Positions 31,697-42,916 of a stretch of DNA of 64,000 nt are shown one piece after another. Within the stretch, counting starts at the first letter, position 1. The number at the start of each line of letters is the position of its first letter. The notes below the pieces were generated by a model that was not told where the DNA came from, ran no database searches, and saw only the letters and a list, made by a program, of their open reading frames with translations. The DNA comes from Klebsiella grimontii (lineage in GTDB: Bacteria; Pseudomonadota; Gammaproteobacteria; Enterobacterales; Enterobacteriaceae): contig NZ_FZTC01000045.1 of the NCBI RefSeq assembly GCF_900200035.1, positions 1 to 64,000 on the forward strand, read 5' to 3'. The position numbers and the translations under genes are program-made.

Positions 31697-31723
31697 AATG
31701 CGGCATTTTTGCCGCATTTTTTT
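31697..31723 (+). terminator. Rho-independent terminator after yhbW
   Basis: Stem AATGCGGC / GCCGCATT with a T-rich loop and a following run of T (to 31723). It separates yhbW from the malonate operon. Confidence 0.88.
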
Positions 31724-31780
31724 CCGCCTGAATGACAATCTGTGACCCACCTCATTCTTCTCACGCCTTTTCCCTCATCT

Positions 31781-31820
31781 GGTTACGTTAAGCGTAATTA
31801 CGTTACCCCGAGCGTAATTG
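31781..31820 (+). promoter_or_regulatory. Repeat cluster upstream of the malonate operon
   Basis: TTACGTTA occurs at 31783-31790 and 31798-31805 (15 bp apart). AGCGTAATT occurs at 31791-31799 and 31811-31819 (20 bp apart). The cluster lies 74 nt upstream of the first gene. Its spacing suits a LysR-type activator, and the operon has such a regulator at its far end. No protein-DNA evidence exists here; the promoter hexamers are not clear. Confidence 0.5.
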
Positions 31821-31893
31821 TTCTCTAAAAAAAGCGATGTTACTTTCTCTCTTGTTTTACTTTTCATAAATGCACGCGTCAAAGAGAATCGCC

Positions 31894-32784
31894 ATGAGCC
31901 AACCAACCGCCAATGCAATAAGGATCGGTGAGTGTTTATTAAAAGCGCTATTAATGGAAGTTTGCGCCTGGCCGAAACCCGGCCTGGTGACGCCGCACTC
32001 GCAGGGCGCGCATGACGATATGGATATATGGCTTTTTATTACCAGTAGCTCTGCCATAGCGCCCTGTTTTTATGCTTGCGCGCAGGCCGGTGAATATCAT
32101 CAGGGCGAGCTGGCAGATTTATTTCCCAAAATACGTCTTATCGGTATTGAATACGAATCCAGGCTGCTGCAATCCACCCGCGAGATAAATACTCAGCGCG
32201 GCATACTCTTTGCCGGAGCCGTTCTGGCCGCCGCCGCCGGCTGGCTAAAAGGTCGGAGACAGCCGCTTTCCAGCGAGTCATTAAGCCAGTGCGTCGCCGG
32301 GCTGTGCCTCGATCTCTGCCGCAACGATTTCGCCGCGCTCGCCCATCGTTCCGCGCAAACTCACGGTGAAAAACTGTATCTGCAATTTGGTATCACCGGC
32401 GTGCGCGGCGAGGCCGAACGGGGCTTTCCGCTGGTCTGCCATATTGGTCTCCCAGCCCTGCGCCAGGCGCTCTCGCTGAGATTTAGCTGGCGTGAAGCAC
32501 TGGTACATACGCTGCTCGCGCTAATGGCGCACTGCGATGATACGACGGTACTTTCGCGCGCAGGTCCCCCTGCGCTGCACGAAATGAAACAGCGCGCGCA
32601 GCGCCTGGTCAACCTGGGAGGAATGAGCCACCCCGGCATAGAACATGAGCTCAACGAATTTAATGCCTGGTGCGTGGACAAATGGGTCAGTCCGGGCGGG
32701 TCGGCAGATTTATTAGCGCTGACCCTGGCGATGTACTTTCTTTGCCATCAATTGCAAGAGGACCCTAACGAGGAAGAGATATGA
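31894..32784 (+). CDS. mdcB: Triphosphoribosyl-dephospho-CoA synthase MdcB/MadG
   Basis: Makes 2'-(5''-triphosphoribosyl)-3'-dephospho-CoA from ATP and dephospho-CoA, the precursor of the malonate decarboxylase ACP prosthetic group. The 296-residue protein belongs to the CitG/MdcB family. It has the family opening ALLMEVCAWPKPGLVTPHSQGAHDDMD-type segment (about residues 19-45), TRINTQRG-like TREINTQRGILFAGA (about residue 95), and a C-terminal SPGGSADLLALT signature. The ATG at 31894 follows AAAGAGA; another ATG lies 24 nt upstream. It is first in the malonate operon; its stop overlaps the next small gene (ATGA). Confidence 0.9.
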   Translation: MSQPTANAIRIGECLLKALLMEVCAWPKPGLVTPHSQGAHDDMDIWLFITSSSAIAPCFYACAQAGEYHQGELADLFPKIRLIGIEYESRLLQSTREINTQRGILFAGAVLAAAAGWLKGRRQPLSSESLSQCVAGLCLDLCRNDFAALAHRSAQTHGEKLYLQFGITGVRGEAERGFPLVCHIGLPALRQALSLRFSWREALVHTLLALMAHCDDTTVLSRAGPPALHEMKQRAQRLVNLGGMSHPGIEHELNEFNAWCVDKWVSPGGSADLLALTLAMYFLCHQLQEDPNEEEI

Positions 32785-32903
32785 GTATCTATTTATATAC
32801 ATTATTAACTTATGCCATGACGATTGTTATTTCTTTTGCCGTGGTCGGAGTCATTGTTGGCGTTAATAGAGTCATGAATAAGCTGAATATTACCGACGAC
32901 TAA
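32781..32903 (+). CDS. 40-residue single-pass membrane microprotein
   Basis: A 40-residue reading frame with one hydrophobic segment (about residues 4-29, rich in Val, Ile and Leu) and a polar tail VNRVMNKLNITDD. Its ATG overlaps the mdcB stop (ATGA) and AGGAAGAG lies just upstream, so it is almost certainly translated. It sits 36 nt before the membrane decarboxylase subunit madB. In related Na+-pumping decarboxylases (oxaloacetate, methylmalonyl-CoA) a small single-pass gamma or delta subunit helps assembly. This could be an analogue, but I see no recognisable OadG motif and length is about half. Function is inferred from position only. Confidence 0.7.
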   Translation: MSIYLYTLLTYAMTIVISFAVVGVIVGVNRVMNKLNITDD

Positions 32904-32939
32904 TACGCCTCTTTTTATGCGTTATCAGGAATATATTTT

Positions 32940-34148
32940 ATGGATATCTTTATTAAGCTCTTTTCGGGCATTGGTACCTTTTTTATTGAAGATCCCACAA
33001 TAGCCATTGCGCGAATATTATTAATTATTCTGGGTTTTGTCCTGGCGTGGATGGGTTTTCGCCGCACCCTCGAACCGCTGATTATGGTGCCGATGGGCTT
33101 AGGCATGATTGCCGTTAACGCCGGGGTGCTCTTTCTCGCGGGCGGGCAAACCGGCACCTTAATTCTCGACCCGATGATCAGCGACCCTACCGAGCTGGTT
33201 AACATTATGCAGATAAACTTCCTGCAGCCGGTTTATAACCTGACCTTCAGTAACGGCCTGATCGCCTGTATCGTTTTCTTCGGCATCGGTGCGATGAGCG
33301 ATATCAGCTTTATTCTGCTCCGCCCCTGGGCCAGCATCATCGTTGCGCTGTTCGCCGAAGCGGGTACCTTCGCCGCACTGCTGCTGGGAATAGAAGTATT
33401 TGGCCTCCCGGCTAACGAAGCGGCTTCTATTGCGACCATCGGCGGCGCCGACGGCCCGATGGTGCTCTTCGCCTCCTTGATTCTGGCGCCGAATCTGTTT
33501 GTCCCCATTGCCATTATCGCCTACCTGTATCTGAGCCTGACCTACGCCGGCTATCCGTATCTGGTGCGCCTGCTGGTACCGAAAAAGTACCGCGGGATGG
33601 AAGTGGATATCGAATATCCCACCGTATCAAAAAAAGCGAAGTTCATCTTCACCATCTGCGCCTGCCTGCTGCTGTGCCTGCTGTTGCCGGTCGCCGCGCC
33701 GCTGATCCTCTCATTCTTCCTCGGGATCGCGATTAAAGAAGCGGAGATCGAACCGTTCCAGAAGCTGCTGGAGACCACCCTGACTTATACCGCGACGCTG
33801 TTTCTCGGCCTGCTGCTCGGCACGCTGTGCGAAGCGCAAACCATTCTTGACCCGAAAGTCGGCATCATTCTGATTCTCGGTATTGGCGCGCTGGCTATCT
33901 CGGCAATCGGCGCCCTGCTCGGCGGCTGGTTTATCTGGCTTATCTCGAAAGGACGCTACAACCCGGCCATTGGCATCGCCGGGGTTTCGTGCCTGCCGAC
34001 CACCGCCAAAATCGCGCAGAAAGAAGTCAGCCATGAAAACCCCTACGCCGTCATTCTGCCGCTGGCCATGGGCGCTGGCGTCAGCGGCCTGATCGTTTCG
34101 GCCATCGCCACCGGGGTCTTTATCTCCACGCTATTCCTGCTGAAATAA
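32940..34148 (+). CDS. madB: Na+-translocating malonate decarboxylase membrane subunit MadB
   Basis: A 402-residue polytopic membrane protein of the OadB/GcdB/MmdB family. These subunits decarboxylate carboxybiotin and couple it to Na+ export. Family signatures seen are VPMGLGMIAVNAG, the FGIGAMSDISFILLRPWAS region, and IGGADGPMVLFASL (about residues 166-179) with the Asp that is essential in OadB. SCLPTTAKIAQKE (about residue 350) resembles the family's second intramembrane polar motif. Its presence marks this as the biotin-dependent type of malonate decarboxylase, unlike the soluble Mdc enzyme of K. pneumoniae. It lies 12 nt before mdcA. Confidence 0.92.
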   Translation: MDIFIKLFSGIGTFFIEDPTIAIARILLIILGFVLAWMGFRRTLEPLIMVPMGLGMIAVNAGVLFLAGGQTGTLILDPMISDPTELVNIMQINFLQPVYNLTFSNGLIACIVFFGIGAMSDISFILLRPWASIIVALFAEAGTFAALLLGIEVFGLPANEAASIATIGGADGPMVLFASLILAPNLFVPIAIIAYLYLSLTYAGYPYLVRLLVPKKYRGMEVDIEYPTVSKKAKFIFTICACLLLCLLLPVAAPLILSFFLGIAIKEAEIEPFQKLLETTLTYTATLFLGLLLGTLCEAQTILDPKVGIILILGIGALAISAIGALLGGWFIWLISKGRYNPAIGIAGVSCLPTTAKIAQKEVSHENPYAVILPLAMGAGVSGLIVSAIATGVFISTLFLLK

Positions 34149-34160
34149 GGGAGTAAAAAC

Positions 34161-35828
34161 ATGCTTAAAGAGCACAACTGGCATCAACTTAAGGATGACA
34201 CGGCGCAGCGCCTGAGCCTTCTGGCGCCGTATTTCCGCGATGGCAAGATTATTGATGCTAAAGATACCGTCGCGGTGCTGGAGGCGGCGATCCGCCGCTT
34301 TGATCGCGTCAATATTGAGGGCAACAACCAGAAGCAGGCGGATTTTCTCGCCGAATGCCTGTGCAAAGTGGACCCGGAAAAAATTTCCGGCCTGCATATG
34401 GTGCAGTCTTCCGTGCCGCTCAGTACGCACCTCGATCTGTTCGAGAAGGGCATTGCCGAAAAGCTCGACTTCGCCTACGCCGGCCCGCAGGATGGCCGCC
34501 TCGCGCAGCTTATTCAGCAGGGCAAGATCAAGCTCGGGGCGATCCACACCTATCTGGAGCTGTTCAGCCGCTACTTTGTCGATCTCACTCCGCGAGTCTC
34601 GCTGATCACCGCCTTTGCCGCCGACAAAGACGGCAACCTCTACACCGGCTTTAACACCGAAGACACGCCGGTAATCGCTGAAGCGACCCACTTCCGCCAG
34701 GGGATCGTGATAGCCCAGGTGAACAAGATCGTCGATAAAGTGCCGCGCGTCGATATTCCCGGCGACTGGGTGAACGCGGTTATTGAAGCGCCGCGCCCGT
34801 TCTACGTTGAACCCCTGTTCACTCGCGATCCGGCGCTGATCACCGATACCCACGTGCTGATGGCGATGATGGCGCTCAAAGGGATCTACGCCGAATACGG
34901 CGTCGAGCGCATTAACCACGGCATCGGCTTCTTCACCGCCGCCATTGAACTGCTGCTGCCCACCTACGGCGAAGAGCTGGGGCTGAAAGGCAAAGTGTGT
35001 ACCCACATGGTGCTGAACCCGCATCCGACGCTGATCCCGGCGATCGAGAGCGGATGGATCCAGTCCGTTCACTGCTTCGGCGGCGAGCTGGGAATGGAAA
35101 AATACGTCGCCGAGCGCCCGGATGTGTTTTACATCGGCCAGGACGGCACTCTGCGCTCAAACCGCGCCTTCGCCCAGGCCGCCGGACACTATGCGCTGGA
35201 TATGTTTATCGGCGGCACGCTGCAAATCGATAAGTACGGCAACAGCAGCACCGCTACCGCCAGCCGCGTTTCCGGTTTTGGCGGCGCGCCGAATATGGGC
35301 TGCGATGCCAAAGGCCGCCGCCACGTCACTCAATCCTGGCTCAAATGCGGCGAAGAGTTCAATGCGACTCAGCAGCAGCTAATCGGCGATATGCCGCGCG
35401 GCAAACGCCTGGTGGTCCAGATGCAGGAGACCTTCCGCGAGAAACGCCAGCCCGCCTTCGTCGACAAACTGGACGCCTGGGAACTGGCGGAAAAAGCCGG
35501 TCTCGCCCTGCCGCCGGTAATGGTTTACGCCGACGACGTCACCCACGTGCTCACCGAAGAAGGTATTGCCCACCTGCACCGCTGCGATGGGCTGGAGCAG
35601 CGGATGGCGGCCATTCGCGCCGTGGCGGGCTACACCGATATCGGCCTCGCCGCCGACCCGGCGCAAACGCAAGCGCTACGCGATGCGGGCATTGTGCAGA
35701 CGCCGGAAGATTTAGGCATCGACAGACGCCGCGCCAACCGCCAGATGCTGGCGGCGAAGAGTATTCGCGATTTGGTCGAGTGGTCCGGCGGACTGTACAA
35801 CCCTCCTGCTCGATTCCGTAACTGGTAA
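34161..35828 (+). CDS. mdcA: Malonate decarboxylase alpha subunit (acetyl-ACP:malonate ACP transferase) MdcA/MadA
   Basis: A 555-residue class I-type CoA transferase relative. It exchanges acetate for malonate on the thiol of the ACP prosthetic group, giving malonyl-S-ACP. The sequence is of MdcA type over its length, with LFSRYFVDLTPRVSLITAFAA-like and FGGAPNMGCDAKGRRHVTQ segments, and has the expected full size. It follows madB and precedes the ACP gene by 11 nt. It is common to both soluble and Na+-pumping malonate decarboxylases. Confidence 0.94.
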   Translation: MLKEHNWHQLKDDTAQRLSLLAPYFRDGKIIDAKDTVAVLEAAIRRFDRVNIEGNNQKQADFLAECLCKVDPEKISGLHMVQSSVPLSTHLDLFEKGIAEKLDFAYAGPQDGRLAQLIQQGKIKLGAIHTYLELFSRYFVDLTPRVSLITAFAADKDGNLYTGFNTEDTPVIAEATHFRQGIVIAQVNKIVDKVPRVDIPGDWVNAVIEAPRPFYVEPLFTRDPALITDTHVLMAMMALKGIYAEYGVERINHGIGFFTAAIELLLPTYGEELGLKGKVCTHMVLNPHPTLIPAIESGWIQSVHCFGGELGMEKYVAERPDVFYIGQDGTLRSNRAFAQAAGHYALDMFIGGTLQIDKYGNSSTATASRVSGFGGAPNMGCDAKGRRHVTQSWLKCGEEFNATQQQLIGDMPRGKRLVVQMQETFREKRQPAFVDKLDAWELAEKAGLALPPVMVYADDVTHVLTEEGIAHLHRCDGLEQRMAAIRAVAGYTDIGLAADPAQTQALRDAGIVQTPEDLGIDRRRANRQMLAAKSIRDLVEWSGGLYNPPARFRNW

Positions 35829-35839
35829 GGGAATAGCAA

Positions 35840-36172
35840 ATGGCTCTACATCAAATATCACATCATTTCAGCGGTAAAAGCGACCGTCCGTCTCTGCCGC
35901 AAACCGTGCACTGCGGCATCGTAGGCTCTGGCGATCTGGAAGTGTTGCTGGAACCTAAAGCCCTGGCAGGCGGAATCGACATCAGCATTTGTACGCCGGT
36001 CACCGGGTTCGACGCCATCTGGAAAATCGTCCTCACCCGCTTTTTAGACAACGGTCCGCTGGGCGATATGCAGGTCAGCATCAATGATAACAACGCGACG
36101 CCTGCCGTGGTGGCGTTACGCCTTCAGCAAGCATTACAACAGGCAATTCCGGGGGAAAACCATCATGAGTGA
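35840..36172 (+). CDS. mdcC: Malonate decarboxylase acyl carrier protein (delta) MdcC/MadE
   Basis: A 110-residue carrier protein with GIVGSGDLEVLLEP. The Ser in GSGD (residue 30) is the expected attachment site for the phosphoribosyl-dephospho-CoA group made by MdcB and attached by MdcG. The C-terminus ends NNATPAVVALRLQQAL, typical of MdcC. Its last 8 nt overlap the start of mdcD, which implies coupled translation. Confidence 0.92.
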   Translation: MALHQISHHFSGKSDRPSLPQTVHCGIVGSGDLEVLLEPKALAGGIDISICTPVTGFDAIWKIVLTRFLDNGPLGDMQVSINDNNATPAVVALRLQQALQQAIPGENHHE

Positions 36173-37094
36173 TCTGCGTTTTCTGGAAGCCAGCGCCCGC
36201 GTTCGCGCCGAAGGGTTGGTGGATAAAGGCTCGTTTACCGAACTGATCGGTCCGACGGCGAAACGGATTAGTCCGCATCTGCCGGTACTGGGCGAAGCGG
36301 TAGAGTTTGATGACGGCGTGGTGACCGGTATTGGCCTGCTCGGCCAGCATCCGACCATCGTTATCTCGCAGGAAGGACGTTTTATCGGCGGCTCCGTTGG
36401 TGAGGTTGGCGGCGCAAAGATGGTCGGCGCGCTGATGCTGGCCGACGAGCTGGCGGCGCAAACTAACGATCCGGCCCGCCGTCCCATCGTGCTCATCTCG
36501 TTTGAAACCGGCGGCGTACGCCTGCACGAGGCCAACGCCGGGCTGCTGGCGCACGCCGAGTGCATGGATATGCTGCAAATCCTGCGCGGCCGCGTACCTG
36601 TGGTGGCGCTGATCGGCAGCAAGATCGGCTGCTTCGGCGGTATGGGCTTTGTCGCCGCCGCCACCGATCTGATCGTCATGAGCGAGTCGGGCCGTCTCGG
36701 ACTCACCGGCCCGGAAGTCATTGAGCAGGAGATGGGTCGTAGCGAATTTGACGCCTCGGATCGCGCCCTGGTGTTCCGCACTACCGGCGGCAAGCACAAA
36801 TATATCGTCGGCGACTGCAACTACCTGATTGCCGATTCGCTGGCGGCCTTCCACCAGCAGGCTTCACTGATTGCCGACCTGCCGTGGCCTGAGATTGAAG
36901 CGATGCGCCGGATCGGCAGCGAGGCGAAAGTCCGCGCACAGATGGCGCTGACGCAAAAAATCAACGAACTTGCGCCAACCGACGCGCGCGATGTCTGGGC
37001 TGCGGCGGGAAATTCAGTGCCGCAATCGCTGGTTGATATGAGCCTGGAGACCTTTCTGAGCAATGTCCAACGCCTGTCCGTGGAGGAAGTATGA
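36165..37094 (+). CDS. mdcD: Malonate decarboxylase beta / carboxyltransferase subunit MdcD/MadC
   Basis: A 309-residue carboxyltransferase-fold (crotonase-like) subunit. With the next gene product it removes the carboxyl group of malonyl-S-ACP. SQEGRFIGGSVGEVGGAKM and ISFETGGVRLHEANAGL carry the oxyanion-hole glycines; SKIGCFGGMGFVAAATD follows. In the Mdc enzyme the carboxyl leaves as CO2 directly. In the Mad type it goes to a biotin protein, and the madF and madB genes here favour the latter. The start at 36165 overlaps mdcC; the stop overlaps mdcE (ATGA). Confidence 0.93.
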   Translation: MSDLRFLEASARVRAEGLVDKGSFTELIGPTAKRISPHLPVLGEAVEFDDGVVTGIGLLGQHPTIVISQEGRFIGGSVGEVGGAKMVGALMLADELAAQTNDPARRPIVLISFETGGVRLHEANAGLLAHAECMDMLQILRGRVPVVALIGSKIGCFGGMGFVAAATDLIVMSESGRLGLTGPEVIEQEMGRSEFDASDRALVFRTTGGKHKYIVGDCNYLIADSLAAFHQQASLIADLPWPEIEAMRRIGSEAKVRAQMALTQKINELAPTDARDVWAAAGNSVPQSLVDMSLETFLSNVQRLSVEEV

Positions 37095-37975
37095 TGGAAA
37101 ATTTACTCGGTCAGGGGCGCGCAGCCATCGACCTGATTGTCGATGAAGGCAGTTTTGCCGAAAACGCCCTTGAGCAACTTAACCTCCCCTGCGACGACTA
37201 CGGCCCCGGCGCGGTCGTCGGCAGCGCGCGGATCAACGGCGAAACCTGCACGGTGATCGCCAACGACGCCATGACCTTCAACCCGCGTTTTCCGGTGGTT
37301 TACGCCGGGATAATCGGTCTCGAAGAGGGCTATAAAATGGCGCTGGCGGTCTACCGCACGCTGGCGATGGATAAAGACAAACCTGCGAGCGAGAAGCGTC
37401 CGCTGGTGCTGATTGTCGACACGCCAGGGAACGGACCAGGCAAGCTGGAAGAGATTATCGGTATGAATAAAGCGACCGGCGCATACCAGCTGGCGCTGGC
37501 CGAAGCGCGCCATGCCGGGCACCCGATTATCGCCATGGTGATTGGCCGCGCCATCAGCGGCGCGTTCCTGTGCCACGGGCTGCAGGCCGACCATATCCTC
37601 AGTCTGACCTCGGAATTCGGCACCATGATCCACGTGATGCCGCTGAGCAGCATCGCGCGCATTACGCGTCAGGACGTCGAGCGGCTGAGCGAACTCTCCC
37701 GTAGCAACCCGGTCTTTGCGGCAGGTCCGGAGTTTTTCTGGCAGCTGGGCGGCGTGGAAGAGTTAATCAAAACCATCCCGGCGATGAAAGAGGCGATCGT
37801 TCGACATATCGCTGAAGTACGCCAGCAGAAACAGGCTGCGGGTATTCAGGCCACCGGTCCGCAGGGGCGCGGCATCTCTGGCGAGGAACGCGGCGGCAGG
37901 AAAGCCCGCGGCGTGATTCTGGCGCAGATGCGCGAAGAGTATCAGCACGTCGCGGCGCGTTATCAGCCCGGCTGA
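37091..37975 (+). CDS. mdcE: Malonate decarboxylase gamma / carboxyltransferase subunit MdcE/MadD
   Basis: A 294-residue second carboxyltransferase subunit. It has VLIVDTPGNGPGKLEEIIGM and VIGRAISGAFLCHGLQADH, both typical of MdcE. Two in-frame ATGs are adjacent (37091, 37094). The C-terminal tail (about residues 255-294) is rich in Gly, Arg and Gln. It forms the catalytic pair with MdcD and is translationally coupled to it. Confidence 0.92.
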   Translation: MMENLLGQGRAAIDLIVDEGSFAENALEQLNLPCDDYGPGAVVGSARINGETCTVIANDAMTFNPRFPVVYAGIIGLEEGYKMALAVYRTLAMDKDKPASEKRPLVLIVDTPGNGPGKLEEIIGMNKATGAYQLALAEARHAGHPIIAMVIGRAISGAFLCHGLQADHILSLTSEFGTMIHVMPLSSIARITRQDVERLSELSRSNPVFAAGPEFFWQLGGVEELIKTIPAMKEAIVRHIAEVRQQKQAAGIQATGPQGRGISGEERGGRKARGVILAQMREEYQHVAARYQPG

Positions 37976-37992
37976 TCCAGGGGAAAAGTGAG

Positions 37993-39096
37993 ATGAACGA
38001 TCCCATCGCCACGCTTGAATGGCTTCTTGAGGCCCAGCCCGGCATTCCCTCTCTGCAAGAGATGCCGCGCCGGACGCTGGAGGACAAAGGCATTGCCGGC
38101 CCAACGGCGGCGCACGTGATTGAAGAGATCCATACGCCGCTTAACCTGGCGCTGGTCACCTTCACCACCGGCAGCAGCGCGTTTCAGAATATCGTCGGCG
38201 TCACGCACGATGAACTGGCGCTGCGCACCGCCGCCGGAAAGCGCGCGCTGGCGGCATGTGGCGTAACCGCAGGGCAGCAGGTGCTGGTGACCTACGCGCC
38301 GCTGGTCAACGTGTTTACCCGCCAGGCGCTGGATGAGAGCGGCCTTCGCTGGTCGTTTTTATCCCGCTCCTGCCGGGACGCGCTGCTGATCGCCCTGTGC
38401 CGGCAGCCGCCGGACGCGGTGGTGGGCGAGTCCTCTTTTTTACGCGCCACCCTGGAGCAGGCGCTGAAGATGGAGCTGGCGGACAGGCTGCCGAAAAAGC
38501 TGACGCTGATAACGGCCGGCACGCCGCTGGATGAAGCGCTGGTTCCGCTGGCGGCTTCTCTGGGTTATGCGCTGCACGATATGTATGGCTGTCAGGAATT
38601 CGGCTGGCTGACGCTTGATGGCATCCCGCTACGCGAAGATATTTCGCTGGTTCCCGCTCCGCAGGGCGGAGACTGGCGGGAAGCGATCGTTGGCGGTTTA
38701 CCAACCGGCGACAGCTTTCCCGTCGCCGCCGGCGGACATCTCTGCAATCCGCAGGGCAAAATCCAGACCTGGAAGCGCCAGCGCACCACGCCGGAATACG
38801 ACATGGTGGTCATGGCGACCACCGCGCGGCATCGGGAGATCGTGGAGCGCACCGCACGGACGATTTTGCGTATTAAGGGACGCGTTTGCCACGTGTCAAC
38901 GCAGCTGATAACCGAGGCCACGGCCACCCATATTCGCCTCTGGCCAAAGGCGGTTCCCGGCGAATGTACCGCAGGCGTTGCGCCCATCGATATTATCGGT
39001 CCGCAGGCAACGGCCCAGTTTGACGCTCTGCTGCAGTCCCAGCGGGATTTACAGCGGCAGGCGAAAAACGATCCTGCCTGGTGTAAAGCGCGATGA
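37993..39096 (+). CDS. madH: AMP-forming ligase, MadH-type acetate:ACP ligase
   Basis: A 367-residue ANL-superfamily adenylating enzyme, short and most like the phenylacetate-CoA ligase branch. The phosphate loop is TFTTGSSAFQN (about residues 55-65). The acyl-adenylate motif is MYGCQEFGWLTLDG (about residues 197-210), and ARTILRIKGR (about residue 290) fits the hinge motif before a reduced C-terminal domain. In Malonomonas, MadH acetylates the free ACP thiol with acetate and ATP to prime the enzyme. The order here, between the carboxyltransferases and mdcG, is that of madH. It replaces MdcH, the malonyl-CoA:ACP transferase of the soluble system, which is absent. Substrate is inferred. Confidence 0.8.
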   Translation: MNDPIATLEWLLEAQPGIPSLQEMPRRTLEDKGIAGPTAAHVIEEIHTPLNLALVTFTTGSSAFQNIVGVTHDELALRTAAGKRALAACGVTAGQQVLVTYAPLVNVFTRQALDESGLRWSFLSRSCRDALLIALCRQPPDAVVGESSFLRATLEQALKMELADRLPKKLTLITAGTPLDEALVPLAASLGYALHDMYGCQEFGWLTLDGIPLREDISLVPAPQGGDWREAIVGGLPTGDSFPVAAGGHLCNPQGKIQTWKRQRTTPEYDMVVMATTARHREIVERTARTILRIKGRVCHVSTQLITEATATHIRLWPKAVPGECTAGVAPIDIIGPQATAQFDALLQSQRDLQRQAKNDPAWCKAR

Positions 39097-39779
39097 CCGC
39101 CCTGCAACGACATACCCTGTGCTGGCTGGAGCCTTCGACGCTGGATGAAATCGCGGCGCAGCTGGAGGATGAATTCGGCCACCTTCCTGCCGTATTGCGG
39201 CAGCAAGCGCGGGAATATCTGCTCAGCGGATCGCTACCGGGCATCGTACGTCGCGGCCTGCGGAGTGAGAATAGTGTTCCGCTTGGGTTCTCTTTCCCAC
39301 TGCGCTGGCAAGGGCAGCGAGTGCGTCTGGCCACTGAAGCGGCGTTATCAGCGATAACACGTTACTCAACCCCAGAGCAAACGGCATCGCTCTCCATTGC
39401 AGAGCGCACTAATGCGATAGGCGCATTTCATGCCTTGCGCCAGGCATGGCGCTGGCCCGGGCTCCAGCTCGGGGTCTGGGGTTCGGTAGGGCTGGAAATG
39501 GCCACGCCGTGGCGATGGAGCGATGCCCACTCGGATCTGGATATTCGCGTTATCCCCACCGCGCCAGGCGAACTCAACGCATGCTGGGCCTGTTTACGTC
39601 ATACCGAAGAGCAATTTCAGTTACGTATTGATGGCGAGATTGGTTTAGCTGACGGATACGCAATCAATATCAAAGAGTGGTTCAGCGGAAGCGCAACTCT
39701 GCTGGCTAAAGGAGAGGATGATGTTCAATTAAGATCGCGACAGCAGGTCACGGCAGCAATGAGAACATATCTCTGTTAA
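39093..39779 (+). CDS. mdcG: Phosphoribosyl-dephospho-CoA transferase MdcG/MadK
   Basis: Attaches the triphosphoribosyl-dephospho-CoA precursor to the ACP serine. The 228-residue nucleotidyltransferase-fold protein has the metal-binding WGSVGLEMATPWRWSDAHSD segment (about residues 130-149) followed by LDIRVIP, with paired acidic residues. The RQQAREYLLSGSLPGIVRRG N-terminal part is typical of MdcG. Its start overlaps the madH stop. It works with MdcB on MdcC. Confidence 0.9.
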   Translation: MTALQRHTLCWLEPSTLDEIAAQLEDEFGHLPAVLRQQAREYLLSGSLPGIVRRGLRSENSVPLGFSFPLRWQGQRVRLATEAALSAITRYSTPEQTASLSIAERTNAIGAFHALRQAWRWPGLQLGVWGSVGLEMATPWRWSDAHSDLDIRVIPTAPGELNACWACLRHTEEQFQLRIDGEIGLADGYAINIKEWFSGSATLLAKGEDDVQLRSRQQVTAAMRTYLC

Positions 39780-39801
39780 ATACATCAAAAAGGAATCTAA
39801 T

Positions 39802-40020
39802 ATGTCTGAAGTTAAATCAAAAGTCCCGGGTGTGGTCGATGAAGTAAAAGCCGCTGCCGGGGATAAAATCGAAAAAGGCCAGGTGGTGATTGTGCTCGAA
39901 GCCATGAAAATGAAAATGCCGGTCGCCTCGCCGGAGACGGGTATATTAAAAACGCTGTCACTCAATACCGGAGACCGCGTCAACCCAGGCATGGTGTTAT
40001 TTGAAATTATTGCAGAGTAA
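39802..40020 (+). CDS. madF: Biotin carrier protein of malonate decarboxylase MadF
   Basis: A 72-residue free-standing biotinyl domain. The biotinylation motif is EAMKMKM with the acceptor Lys at residue 36, in the usual hairpin position. KVPGVVDEVKAAAGDKIEKG precedes it and TGDRVNPGMVLFEI follows, all typical of biotinyl domains. It should accept the carboxyl group from MdcDE and deliver it to MadB. No biotin ligase gene is nearby, so the host BirA must modify it. It is followed by the only long gap in the operon. Confidence 0.92.
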   Translation: MSEVKSKVPGVVDEVKAAAGDKIEKGQVVIVLEAMKMKMPVASPETGILKTLSLNTGDRVNPGMVLFEIIAE

Positions 40021-40287
40021 AGTGAGTTAACACGCATTTAATTAAAAAAACAATGCGACATTCTATTGTGAGATTATTTCTATGTTAATGTCATATCAGT
40101 AAGCATTTTGCTTGCTGATATGATAAATCATAGTGACTGAGCAAACCTGTGTTCTTACGAATGTCCGCAAATAAAAACGCGCTATGCTAAAAGCCGCTGA
40201 TTAATTTTTTGTCATTTCTCCAACGCGGGCATTATCAACCCGCGTTGTGTAATTCGCTTTTAGTATGGATAGACAAAGAGAAACATC
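40021..40287 (+). promoter_or_regulatory. Structured 267-nt leader between madF and madL
   Basis: This AT-rich gap has no credible gene and interrupts an operon whose other gaps are 43 nt or less. Hairpin 1 at 40091-40123 pairs 14 positions (TCATATCAGTAAGC with GCTTGCTGATATGA, one T-G pair) around an ATTTT loop. Hairpin 2 at 40221-40247 has a perfect stem CAACGCGGG / CCCGCGTTG and ends 40 nt before the madL ATG. It is followed by TGTAATTCGCTTTTAG, only a weak T tract. TAG triplets follow at 40261 and 40270, close to the AAAGAG ribosome-binding site. It may be an internal promoter, an attenuator or an RNA-binding target. Confidence 0.55.
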
Positions 40288-40683
40288 ATGATTATTTACG
40301 GATTGATGTTAATGGGACTGTGCATGTTCGCCGGGCTAATCGTGGGCGATCTTCTTGGCCTGGTCTTGGGTATTTCCGCCAATATCGGCGGCATCGGCTT
40401 CGCGATGCTGTTTTTAGTTATCGTGTCACAAAAATTAGTGGATAAAGGATTGCTCTCCAAGCCTGCGGAACAGGGGGTAGGTTTCTGGAATGCAATGTAT
40501 ATCCCGATTGTCGTCGCTATGTCGGCAAACCAGAACGTTATCGCCGCCCTTAAAGGCGGTCCGGTTGCCTTGATTGCCGGCGTTGGCGCCGTTTTTATTG
40601 GTTTTCTGCTGATTAAGCCTTTGAGCAAAATCGGCGGTCGCGACCATCAGGAAAGCTCCGCCGTTAGCGAGGAGTGTAAATAA
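40288..40683 (+). CDS. madL: Malonate transporter subunit MadL
   Basis: A 131-residue membrane protein with about four hydrophobic segments. It is the small partner of the MadLM malonate carrier. Recognisable family parts are MLMGLCMFAGLIVGDLLG, SANIGGIGFAMLFLV and FWNAMYIPIVVAMSANQNV. The polar C-terminal tail is short. The stop overlaps the madM start by one base (TAATG), implying coupled translation in a fixed ratio. Confidence 0.92.
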   Translation: MIIYGLMLMGLCMFAGLIVGDLLGLVLGISANIGGIGFAMLFLVIVSQKLVDKGLLSKPAEQGVGFWNAMYIPIVVAMSANQNVIAALKGGPVALIAGVGAVFIGFLLIKPLSKIGGRDHQESSAVSEECK

Positions 40684-41453
40684 TGGAACAGCTGACAAAG
40701 ATTCTAACCGGTAGCTTCACCAGCAACGGTTTGATTACCGCTTTTGTCGTGGTGGGTATCGTATGCTGGGCCGCAAGCTGGATCTCAACGCATCTGCTTC
40801 GCGGCAAGATCCACAGCTCAGCTATTGCCATCGTCGCCGGATTGCTGCTGGCCTGGCTTGGCGGGGAACTGACCGGCGGTAAAAAAGGTCTGGCCGATAT
40901 CAGCTTGTTTAGCGGTATTGCGCTGATGGGCGGCGGTATGTTCCGCGATTTCGCCATCATTTCCACCGCCTTCGGCGTTAAGCTTGAAGAACTGAAAAAA
41001 GCCGGCATGGCTGGCGCGCTGGCGCTGGTTATCTCGACGGTGCTCTCTTTTTATCTCGGGGCGATTGTCGCCTGGGCTTTTGGCTATACCGACGCCATCA
41101 GCATGGCGACCATTGGCGCGGGGGCCGTAACCTTCATCGTCGGCCCGGTAACCGGCGCAGCGCTTGGCGCAAGCTCGGATGTTATCGCGCTGAGCATCGC
41201 CGCCGGCGTGATTAAGTCTATTGCCGTCATGATCTTAACGCCGCTGGTAGCGAAAGCCGCGGGCCTGAACTCGCCTGCCGCCGCTATCGTCTACGGCGGG
41301 CTAATGGGCTCCACCAGCGGAGTCGCCGCGGGTCTGGCGGCCACGGACCCGAAACTCGTTCCCTATGGCGCAATGACGGCAACCTTTTATACCGGCCTTG
41401 GCTGTCTGCTGGCCCCTTCGGCCCTCTATCTCTCTTTAACCCCCTTCTTTTAA
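40683..41453 (+). CDS. madM: Malonate transporter subunit MadM
   Basis: A 256-residue polytopic membrane protein, the larger MadLM subunit, probably a Na+- or H+-coupled malonate symporter in the inner membrane. Family features are FSGIALMGGGMFRDFAIISTAFG-like (about residue 78), ATIGAGAVTFIVGPVTGAALG and IVYGGLMGSTSGVAAGLAATD, which are glycine-rich intramembrane stretches. It replaces MdcF-type transport. Confidence 0.92.
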   Translation: MEQLTKILTGSFTSNGLITAFVVVGIVCWAASWISTHLLRGKIHSSAIAIVAGLLLAWLGGELTGGKKGLADISLFSGIALMGGGMFRDFAIISTAFGVKLEELKKAGMAGALALVISTVLSFYLGAIVAWAFGYTDAISMATIGAGAVTFIVGPVTGAALGASSDVIALSIAAGVIKSIAVMILTPLVAKAAGLNSPAAAIVYGGLMGSTSGVAAGLAATDPKLVPYGAMTATFYTGLGCLLAPSALYLSLTPFF

Positions 41454-41460
41454 TGACGGA

Positions 41461-41483
41461 CGCCTGCTGTGATGCAGCAGGCG
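41461..41483 (+). promoter_or_regulatory. Perfect hairpin upstream of the HutP-like gene
   Basis: CGCCTGCTG / CAGCAGGCG, a 9-bp perfect stem with a TGATG loop, lies between madM and the next ribosome-binding site (AAGGGA at 41485-41490). No T tract follows, so it is not a simple terminator. It may regulate translation or mRNA decay. Confidence 0.6.
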
Positions 41484-41496
41484 CAAGGGATGTTCA

Positions 41497-41928
41497 ATGT
41501 ACTCATTTCAGCGCATGAAACCTGGGCAAATCGCGCTTCTGGCCTCACTTTGTACGCAAGAAGACGAAGATAATTTTCGCCAGAAGCTATTAGCGGATAA
41601 GCCCGAACATAAGGTGGGTTTTGTTTTTATGACCGGGACATCGGATGAAATAAAAAATAAACTACAGCGCTGTATCATCGGCTGCGCGTTTAAGCATCAG
41701 ATAATTACGCGCCAGGAATCGGCCATTTTTACGTTATGTCAGGTCAGCCATCAGGCGCTGACCCATGCTTTAGCGAACAGCATCAATGGCGATCGGATGA
41801 GAATAAAAATAGCCTTAGTCAGTAATCCAAAGTGGCTTGCCGTCGCTATCTACGGCGAAAGCGTGGTCTATCAGCGATTGAGTCATGAGCTTACGGGGTT
41901 TTCTCTGTCTCGCTTTTCTCCATCATAA
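41497..41928 (+). CDS. HutP-family-like protein of the malonate operon
   Basis: A 143-residue protein with no membrane segment. By eye it aligns over most of its length with Bacillus HutP, a metal- and histidine-dependent RNA-binding antiterminator. Matching parts are KVGFVFMTGTSDEI (against HutP KVCLGKVGSMDAHK), VSHQALTHALANSING (against ESHALYHATMEALHG), WLAVAIYGESVVYQRL (against DWIAVSLYGTIGAPIKGL) and SHELTGFSLSRF (against EHETFGVGINHI). Of the three HutP metal ligands, the second and third His seem kept; the first aligns with Gln, though a His is adjacent. It follows madM by 43 nt with a good AAGGGA site. Its 3' end overlaps the convergent LysR gene by 38 nt. An RNA-level regulatory role is inferred. 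Confidence 0.7.
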   Translation: MYSFQRMKPGQIALLASLCTQEDEDNFRQKLLADKPEHKVGFVFMTGTSDEIKNKLQRCIIGCAFKHQIITRQESAIFTLCQVSHQALTHALANSINGDRMRIKIALVSNPKWLAVAIYGESVVYQRLSHELTGFSLSRFSPS

Positions 41929-42832
41929 GCTGTCTGGCGTACATACGGCACTCGGCTAGTAAGGACAGCAGACCCGGCTGATTTTCCTGGCTACGCGGGA
42001 AGACCAGCGAAATTTCCTGTTCCATTCGATAGGGCTCCTGCAGCGGCAGCAGGCGAATGCCGTTACTGAACAGGCCGCGCATCCTCCCCGGAATTAAGGT
42101 ATAGCCCATGCCGGCATTCACCATACTCATCAGTGAAAAAATATCATGTACCCGGACGGTAATGTCGGGCGTAAATCCAGCAATCTGAAAGGCCTCCTGA
42201 AATCCTCGCCAGGTCGCGAAGCCTTCGCTCAAGGCAATAAACTTTTTATTTTGCAGATGCCGTAAATCTACGGGGGTCGATAAGCTATCCGCTTCGGTTA
42301 CCGGAACTGCAAGGTAGATGGAATCAGAGAATATGGTCCATGTCTCAAATAACTGGGCGTTATAATCATCGGGAGTCGATATCAGAACCGCATCAATCTT
42401 CTCTTCATTAAGCGCTTCTAATAATTTCTTATTAGAGTTCATGATAAATTCAATGGTCAGTTCCGGGCAGCGTTTTTTCAATCCCTGAACAATTTGCGGT
42501 GCGGTTTTTAACACTAGCGAATAAAGTAGCCCTAAACGTAAAACCTGAGAATGATACCCCGAAGCCTTACGGGTAAGATAAATACAGCGTTCCAGTGCAT
42601 TAATGACTTCCCGCGCTTCCTTTTGCATAACCCATGCGCCAGGTAAAGGATAAAGATTGCGGCCATTATGGGTAAACAAAGGACAGCGTAAATTATCTTC
42701 CAGCGAATGAAGCGCGCGATGAACGCTAACGGATGAAATGTTCATTAGCTCTGCAGTTTTTGATATATTCATCGACTCCATATAGCTAAGGAAAATCTCG
42801 AGCTTCCGCAGAGTAATATCGTTATTCAGCAT
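41891..42832 (-). CDS. LysR-family regulator, probable malonate operon activator
   Basis: A 313-residue LysR-type regulator. The N-terminal winged helix-turn-helix (about residues 8-66) has SKTAELMNISSVSVHRALHSLED. The substrate-binding domain (about residues 95-295) is of the type found in malonate utilisation regulators (MdcR/MadR-like). It is convergent to the operon and overlaps its last gene by 38 nt, an unusual place since LysR genes are often divergent from their targets. The likely ligand is malonate, and the repeat cluster at 31781-31820 is the candidate target. Both are inference. Confidence 0.85.
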   Translation of the reverse strand: MLNNDITLRKLEIFLSYMESMNISKTAELMNISSVSVHRALHSLEDNLRCPLFTHNGRNLYPLPGAWVMQKEAREVINALERCIYLTRKASGYHSQVLRLGLLYSLVLKTAPQIVQGLKKRCPELTIEFIMNSNKKLLEALNEEKIDAVLISTPDDYNAQLFETWTIFSDSIYLAVPVTEADSLSTPVDLRHLQNKKFIALSEGFATWRGFQEAFQIAGFTPDITVRVHDIFSLMSMVNAGMGYTLIPGRMRGLFSNGIRLLPLQEPYRMEQEISLVFPRSQENQPGLLSLLAECRMYARQLMMEKSETEKTP

Positions 42833-42892
42833 ATAAATATTCCCTTATTCAAGACAATATTCATAGTAAGAGAAATAAAGAAAATATTTTTT

Positions 42893-42916
42893 GAGCCAGA
42901 TCGTTAAATCTGGCTC
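42893..42916. terminator. Stem-loop between mtr and the LysR gene
   Basis: GAGCCAGAT / ATCTGGCTC with a 6-base loop follows mtr on the minus strand. The adjoining homopolymer is T on the plus strand (A on minus), so it lacks the canonical T tract for mtr transcription. It may still protect or end the mtr message. Confidence 0.4.

Follow-up and report, generated by a model that had tools for sequence, protein, structure and literature searches.

In a 64,000-nt stretch of the Klebsiella grimontii contig NZ_FZTC01000045.1 (the window; genome G000, 6.17 Mb in 53 contigs), eleven plus-strand genes at 31894-41453, all with open frames, follow one another in the order madG, B, A, E, C, D, H, K, F, L, M. 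They support the presence of a complete malonate decarboxylase (MAD) of the Malonomonas rubra type, biotin-dependent and with predicted coupling to Na+ transport. Between madG and madB lies a further open reading frame (ORF) of 40 codons, which we name madX. We consider it likely that the operon encodes an M. rubra-type Na+ pump that works with MadX as a small membrane partner; what the comparisons show is gene content, gene order, conservation, the selection on madX and its link to MadB-type subunits. The balance of the evidence also favours the wider proposal that the MAD pump has a second membrane subunit, MadX, a tail-less helix of the gamma/delta type that would belong to the MadB branch, also when this is wired to methylmalonyl-CoA. 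The enzyme system itself is of an already known kind in a little-noticed enteric host, and NCBI models already label madB. The unexpected result was a small membrane gene going with every MadB of the 80 loci compared. Genomes and loci are cited below by our G and L numbers.

A predicted Na+-pumping malonate decarboxylase in an enteric genome

The original prediction, made from the sequence of the window, had described a biotin-dependent malonate decarboxylase cluster of the Na+-pump type, and our comparisons bear it out. MadB scores above the curated cut-off of the NCBIfam model TIGR03136 (Na+-transporting enzyme; 596.9 bits). A predicted model of MadX with MadB (pLDDT 68.4, 24 sequences) has as its best PDB match 6iww_A, the beta-gamma complex of oxaloacetate decarboxylase (OAD), at E = 2e-14. 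MadA, MadC and MadD are 73%, 61% and 64% identical to their M. rubra counterparts and 59%, 42% and 37% identical to the soluble homologues of their own genome, the last two values being taken from best tblastn segments that cover part of each protein (MadC residues 3-229, MadD residues 39-226). Gene order, too, is as claimed: the M. rubra contig (L008) carries the same eleven genes in the identical order, with MadB 75-76% identical, together with a gene of the HutP family and an ORF that resembles madX. Here the HutP-family gene lies downstream together with a LysR gene, whereas in M. rubra it lies upstream; the enteric host possesses the soluble enzyme as well.

The equivalents of OAD Asp203 and Ser382, for which mutation shows a need in Na+ binding (excerpt of PMC7274780), are invariant in 86 of 86 MadB rows and correspond to D171 and S350 of the window MadB, at the first Na+ site. 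Two details weigh against the assignment. The residue of the second Na+ site (OAD Asn412) is Gly in the window MadB, as it also is in M. rubra, and Asn in 54 of the 86 rows. MadG, in turn, falls slightly below the NCBIfam cut-offs of both CitG (267.2 against 272.3 bits) and MdcB (265.5 against 282.35 bits). TIGR03136 is moreover passed by a methylmalonyl-CoA-type locus of Flavonifractor plautii (L042; 619.7 against 596.9 bits), and the malonate assignment therefore rests on the neighbouring genes rather than on madB alone.

The window contains every gene named in the original prediction, all of them open and on the same strand, and eight of the eleven exceed an NCBIfam curated cut-off. The genes of the cluster are as follows (bit scores with cut-offs in brackets).

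31894..32784, plus strand: madG, triphosphoribosyl-dephospho-CoA synthase of the CitG/MdcB family; PF01874 261.8 bits; an additional in-frame ATG lies at 31870.
32781..32903, plus strand: madX (name coined here), 40-aa single-helix membrane protein; candidate gamma/delta-type MadB partner that has no cytoplasmic tail.
32940..34148, plus strand: madB, carboxybiotin decarboxylase/Na+ pump subunit of the OAD beta family; TIGR03136 691.2 bits (596.9).
34161..35828, plus strand: madA, acetyl-S-ACP:malonate ACP transferase (ACP, acyl carrier protein), alpha subunit; TIGR01110 974 bits (789.15).
35840..36172, plus strand: madE, malonate decarboxylase ACP; TIGR03130 113.5 bits (84.1).
36162..37094, plus strand: madC, carboxyltransferase subunit, MdcD-like; TIGR03133 338.3 bits (278.15).
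37091..37975, plus strand: madD, carboxyltransferase subunit, MdcE-like; TIGR03134 292.9 bits (237.15).
37993..39096, plus strand: madH, predicted acyl-adenylating fold; ACP acetate ligase by position.
39093..39779, plus strand: madK, holo-ACP synthase of the MdcG family; TIGR03135 129.6 bits (99.7); PF10620 and PF20866.
39802..40020, plus strand: madF, free biotin carrier protein; PF00364 (Biotin_lipoyl) 63 bits (22.1).
40288..40683, plus strand: madL, malonate transporter subunit; TIGR00807 143.3 bits (113.45).
40683..41453, plus strand: madM, malonate transporter subunit; TIGR00808 363.3 bits (236.3).

The free biotinyl domain claimed for MadF is confirmed by its PF00364 score and by the EAMKM motif seen in the sequence; among the NCBIfam models shown, MadF stays below every cut-off. 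For MadH, Pfam was silent at E <= 1 and NCBIfam gave one stray model (E = 0.073). An AlphaFold model (pLDDT 79.8) has PaaK1 as its top structural match (E = 7e-9, TM-score 0.44), followed by other adenylating enzymes. The label of adenylating ligase given earlier is thus valid at the level of the fold, because it is the predicted structure that matches PaaK and other adenylating enzymes; MadH probably has an acyl-adenylating fold, and its ligase role is assigned by position.

The textbook reading of such genes, namely the ordinary soluble, biotin-independent Klebsiella mdc enzyme with MadB and MadF as passengers, draws on the NCBI models, which term madC and madD 'biotin-independent' subunits. 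We consider it most improbable: MadC and MadD are far nearer to M. rubra than to their own soluble homologues, each of the 40 well-flanked madA loci (found through MadB, with flanks of 3 kb before and 8 kb after madB; tblastn E <= 1e-3) also has madF, and a separate soluble mdc cluster is already there. This cluster, on contig C5, contains a second mdcA. Homologues of MadA, MadG, MadE, MadC, MadD, MadK and the LysR regulator are grouped in it, whereas its 14-kb stretch has no match to MadB, MadX, MadF, MadH, MadL or MadM at E <= 1e-3. Two further OAD-beta genes are also in the genome. With an M. rubra-type pump beside the soluble enzyme, an enteric bacterium might use the same substrate either simply for carbon or to conserve energy, in a genus with easy genetics. 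Our literature search, which covered titles and abstract openings and lay mostly outside subscription journals, returned no biotin-dependent malonate decarboxylase in Klebsiella.

A small membrane gene, madX, accompanies madB

The original prediction had missed the 40-aa ORF at 32781-32903, as well as a HutP-family gene (41497-41928) and a LysR gene (41891-42832). The ATG of madX overlaps the madG stop codon (ATGA), and its product is one hydrophobic helix. We compared the best 80 of 463 related loci found, a set that leans to close relatives of MadB. In all 80, which span seven phylum labels, madB is directly preceded by a MadX-like ORF of 35 to 47 residues; stricter pattern matching placed it in 79 and missed L049. 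A hidden Markov model (HMM) of 80 sequences (the window and 79 loci) matched at E <= 1e-3 in all 80 loci, with no second match at E < 0.01 in any. HMMs built from half of the lineages recovered the held-out MadX in 53 of 53 and 27 of 27 cases (worst E = 3e-10) and nothing extra among the 28,116 ORFs that served as background for the MadX and OadG profile searches. The helix shows residue-level conservation. Between the window and eight enteric copies, two of them from one genome, the nonsynonymous divergence (dN) of madX is 0.02-0.24 and the synonymous divergence (dS) 0.32-1.96; the gene is under purifying selection.

Known families did not account for MadX. None of the 80 members gave a convincing Pfam or NCBIfam match, the best stray E-values being 0.0013 and 0.0017, respectively (for Pfam, among the families listed, 25 of the 34 matching). 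A search of solved structures with MadX returned four DsbB matches at E 1.6-1.8 and nothing meaningful. The titles and abstract openings covered by the literature search yielded nothing on a gamma-type subunit of MAD. The gene lists of CP125156.1 and NC_014035.1 omit madX though the ORF is present; because PLSDB gene tables are incomplete, this says little about annotation at large. In the model with MadB, the MadX helix has a pLDDT of 88 (residues 1-10) and 90 (residues 11-20), in an output that holds no contacts and says nothing on binding.

MadX follows the MadB-type subunit beyond malonate loci

No madA match was found in 24 of the 80 loci, 15 of which have at least 5 kb of DNA downstream of madB. 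One such neighbourhood is that of F. plautii, where genes for MeaB (TIGR00750) and methylmalonyl-CoA epimerase (TIGR03081) both score over their cut-offs and the carboxyltransferase is nearest to MmdA (TIGR01117, 791.5 bits, below the cut-off of 998.8). MadX, MadB and MadF are also encoded there, with no OadG match in the locus. Because MadX is kept in loci such as this one that lack the malonate-specific MadA, it accompanies the MadB-type pump subunit rather than malonate chemistry. As a side point on annotation, the TIGR03136 name misleads for the MadB-type subunit of this locus (L042:6921-11212), given its neighbouring genes.

The searches covered samples of 20 genus, 394 order and 398 phylum genomes. 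In the phylum sample, TIGR03136 matched in 14 of 398 genomes at E <= 1e-100, and only the window's match exceeds the cut-off. A genome-wide MadX search of the same sample gave five matches: the window, G672, G460 and G565, the latter three near divergent MadB-like genes, and G194. The match in G194 was taken as chance, there being no MadB-model match at E <= 1e-100 in that genome.

MadX as a proposed gamma/delta-type subunit without the tail

OAD has a gamma subunit, and the related pumps of methylmalonyl-CoA decarboxylase (MCD) and glutaconyl-CoA decarboxylase (GCD) a homologous delta subunit, while MAD is described with MadB only (excerpt of PMC7274780). In 6IWW, the gamma helix comprises residues 2-43, and the tail beyond it binds the alpha subunit (same excerpt). 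MadX is about as long as this helix of about 40 residues. Like the OadB/OadG pair and the beta-delta pairs of Mmd and Gcd, the window has a MadB of the OAD-beta fold and, in the same cluster, the gene of a one-helix protein. An N-terminal-type helix encoded with the beta subunit is found in 80 of 80 loci. Unlike OadG, MadX has no cytoplasmic tail with an Ala/Pro-rich linker, the whole protein being 35-47 aa, and PF04277, TIGR01195 and NF040909 do not match it convincingly. The last of these, OadG_rel_small, is a short (37-position) model of an OadG-like helix and in this respect is similar to MadX, but not one of the 80 MadX members matches it at E <= 10, and it has no match in the present genome. 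In the phylum sample, NF040909 gave 14 matches, of which 10 overlap OadG sites marked by PF04277 and the other 4 lie outside that PF04277 list.

We also used an OadG profile of our own, built from 26 sequences. It gave no match at E <= 0.01 in the 80 loci. At E <= 1, only six of the 28,116 ORFs matched, and all six are MadX ORFs (L069, L079, L018, L019, L020 and M. rubra L008; best E = 0.018). Chance is unlikely to place all six within the 80 MadX ORFs, though each match is faint.

A longer protein family connects the two types. Near the MadB-like genes of 12 of the 13 other phylum genomes that TIGR03136 matched we found a family, termed bridge proteins here, whose 13 members (107-120 residues) begin with a helix like that of MadX and end in a tail like that of OadG. 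In the thirteenth genome, G528 (L230), no bridge protein was found in the stretch examined. The bridge profile aligns with MadX at an hhalign probability of 95.9%, equalled in 0 of 200 permutations. PF04277 is matched by 10 of the 13 bridge proteins (best E = 2.4e-4); the first member reaches 21.5 bits, below the cut-off of 27. L215, L222, L227, L228 and related loci contain divergent MadB-like pumps with a bridge-type gamma subunit. L215, L217/L227 and L228 have in addition a second, short MadX-like ORF just upstream.

A number of results weigh against MadX as a gamma/delta-type subunit. The best 80 of 463 loci lean to close MadB kin, and tblastn with the window MadX alone detects the gene in only 26 of the 40 well-flanked madA loci. 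Of the 14 phylum genomes that TIGR03136 matches strongly, 10 gave no match to MadX at E <= 0.001; nine of these ten have the longer bridge protein at laxer scoring, and the tenth is G528. The matches to our OadG profile are weak and limited to 6 of 80 MadX. Direct hhalign comparison of MadX with OadG gives 32%, and 1 of 100 column permutations is equally good. PF04277 is matched by 1 of 80 MadX (E = 0.0013) and TIGR01195 by 2 of 80 (best E = 0.0096); the window MadX itself matches neither. The likeness of the bridge proteins to OadG lies in the C-terminal tail, with 1.4% for the helix part alone, and when the helix block was permuted, 58 of 200 trials did as well as the overall match (74%), which therefore supports homology of the tail only.

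A direct homology between the MadX helix and OadG was accordingly considered and is suggested by the hhalign value and the six weak profile matches; we do not claim it as membership. Because the bridge likeness is tail-based and the direct comparison marginal, MadX is not filed in the OadG family. We read it as a protein that would act like a tail-less gamma/delta subunit.

Alternatively, within an M. rubra-type pump, MadX may be a separate small membrane protein, such as an aid to MadB insertion or a leader that couples the translation of madG and madB. The ATGA overlap with madG would fit a leader, and a non-subunit would also agree with the marginal OadG likeness and with a MadX-MadB contact that is only inferred. 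It would fit poorly with a helix conserved residue by residue and a dN far under dS, with the presence of MadX in L011, L013 and L014, where madG is not upstream, and with a bridge family that carries an OadG-like tail, all of which suggest a protein with a lasting role beside the beta subunit. We regard this alternative as unlikely and keep MadX as the candidate pump partner.

A possible working scheme for the pump

In M. rubra, malonate is loaded on ACP and biotin takes over its carboxyl group; MadB then decarboxylates the carboxybiotin, with transport of Na+ (in part from excerpts of PMC7274780 and PMC5534430). By orthology, these steps may be mapped onto the present operon. MadL and MadM would import malonate. 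MadG, MadK and MadH would equip the carrier MadE with its prosthetic group in acetylated form, and MadA would exchange acetate for malonate. MadC and MadD would then transfer the carboxyl group from malonyl-MadE to the biotin on MadF, and membrane-bound MadB would decarboxylate carboxy-MadF and move Na+ outward. MadX would span the membrane with its one helix, the C-terminal end probably being cytoplasmic, and may bind MadB and stabilise or assemble its oligomer. In OAD, the tail links the carboxyltransferase with the pump; here it may not be needed, with the mobile carrier MadF shuttling the carboxyl group. That the helix is kept and the tail is not would be explained if the small carrier MadF, and not a tethered alpha subunit, visits MadB.

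If MadX is a subunit, one membrane part is missing from present descriptions of the M. rubra-type pump, which would matter for reconstituting it. MadX and MadB would then form a minimal natural beta-gamma unit that separates the membrane role of the helix from the tethering role of the tail. Being tail-less, MadX could then also serve as a simple model of the gamma/delta subunits, which are poorly understood.

The mad island at the yhbW-mtr junction

The original prediction had placed the cluster in an enteric genome, between yhbW and mtr, as a unit that was probably acquired, and each element of this placement holds. The nearest named relative is Klebsiella spallanzanii (MadB 97%), both flanks are correct (mtr by gene name in the annotation of CP125156.1), and a single block is seen when the junction is compared among the 20 genus genomes, where it is empty in 16. 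All 20 have yhbW, mtr directly follows it in 16, and the mad island lies between the two genes in 4 (G000, G396, G408, G409). The island extends beyond 31894-41453 to the genes of the HutP family and the MdcR-like LysR regulator:

31720..42905, no strand: whole island from yhbW to mtr, borders set by eye to a few bases against empty junctions.

Five of the 20 genus genomes and 2 of the 394 order genomes exceed the TIGR03136 cut-off; in the second of the latter, MadB is identical to that of Gilliamella sp. wkB108. A blastn search with 31894-35828 found no match in an E. coli collection of 20,395 records from 5,426 genomes. The mad pump cluster is rare among enterics and not unique. In a tree of 87 MadB rows, the window groups with G396, G408 and K. 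spallanzanii at a support of 91/99, just below the mark of the program; by path length, these are followed by CP125156.1 and Phytobacter, and deep forks nearby remain open.

The island has a GC fraction of 0.557 (window, 0.554). Against K. spallanzanii, G396, G408 and Phytobacter massiliensis, dS of most island genes is about that of yhbW and mtr, and above flank level for lysR and in part for hutP and madG. Against Phytobacter, the flanks give 0.73 (yhbW) and 1.29 (mtr). The values are 0.63 for madB, 0.70 for madA, 0.75 for madC, 0.82 for madD, 0.73 for madH, 0.94 for madM, 1.08 for madX and 1.17 for hutP, with higher ones for madG (1.47) and lysR (2.19). Because the synonymous divergence matches that of the flanks, the island is old at the yhbW-mtr site and no recent arrival. 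Both repeated loss and joint movement with the flanks are compatible with its history.

As a rival reading, the island might be a decaying or silent relic of a past acquisition in enterics, lost in most lineages. Its presence at the junction in only 4 of 20 genus genomes points that way, as do madE, madC and madH of CP125156.1, which are matched in part (madC and madH are unlisted there), perhaps through sequencing errors. On the other side, every frame of the window is open, the genes of three other genus genomes (L209, L210 and L211) are each matched at full or nearly full length in one tblastn segment, and dN is far under dS for every gene (against the nearest five loci, L004, L005, L175, L209 and L210). 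A relic seems improbable to us, and a working pump is the reading that we retain.

Some related records deserve mention. G407, also of the genus, bears a distinct mad cluster at another site (L212:4011-13094), with a LysR gene upstream and MadB 69% identical; madL and madM were unmatched within the 18.5 kb read. G407 is counted among the 16 empty yhbW-mtr junctions (L156). A contig binned as Sporobacter termitidis (L006) contains yhbW, the mad island and mtr and shares 94% identity with an enteric record across 11.8 kb; it is probably a misplaced enteric contig. CP125156.1 (L175; 5.37 Mb), filed as a Klebsiella pneumoniae plasmid, bears the chromosomal genes diaA, dolP and deaD in addition to the mad island. 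Its identity with K. spallanzanii (L004) is 81% over 17.6 kb, and Phytobacter (L005), at 90% over 9.5 kb, is the closer of the two.

Regulatory genes and the madF-madL spacer

The remaining features of the island are the following.

41497..41928, plus strand: HutP-family gene, probable RNA-binding regulator; PF09021 59.8 bits (gathering score 25).
41891..42832, minus strand: LysR-type regulator gene, MdcR-like; PF03466 and PF00126.
40021..40287, plus strand: madF-madL spacer with inverted repeat, from an alignment of 7 loci.

The LysR protein is 48% identical to the one adjoining the soluble mdc cluster of the same genome. HutP belongs to a regulator family known from the Bacillus hut operon. 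Among the 40 well-flanked madA loci, a HutP relative was found in 34 and a LysR relative in 4 (tblastn E <= 1e-3). The HutP-family gene accompanies malonate decarboxylase clusters across many lineages, M. rubra included (L008:1547-1999, upstream of madG). Within the titles and abstract openings covered, a search for HutP with malonate returned only papers unrelated by title.

Across the island, no Rfam family reached its gathering score. The spacer between madF and madL holds an inverted repeat, CATATCAG ... CTGATATG, that is kept in 7 of 7 enteric loci, and is possibly a regulatory leader. Within the spacer, CTAAAAG ... CTTTTAG could also pair just before the madL start.

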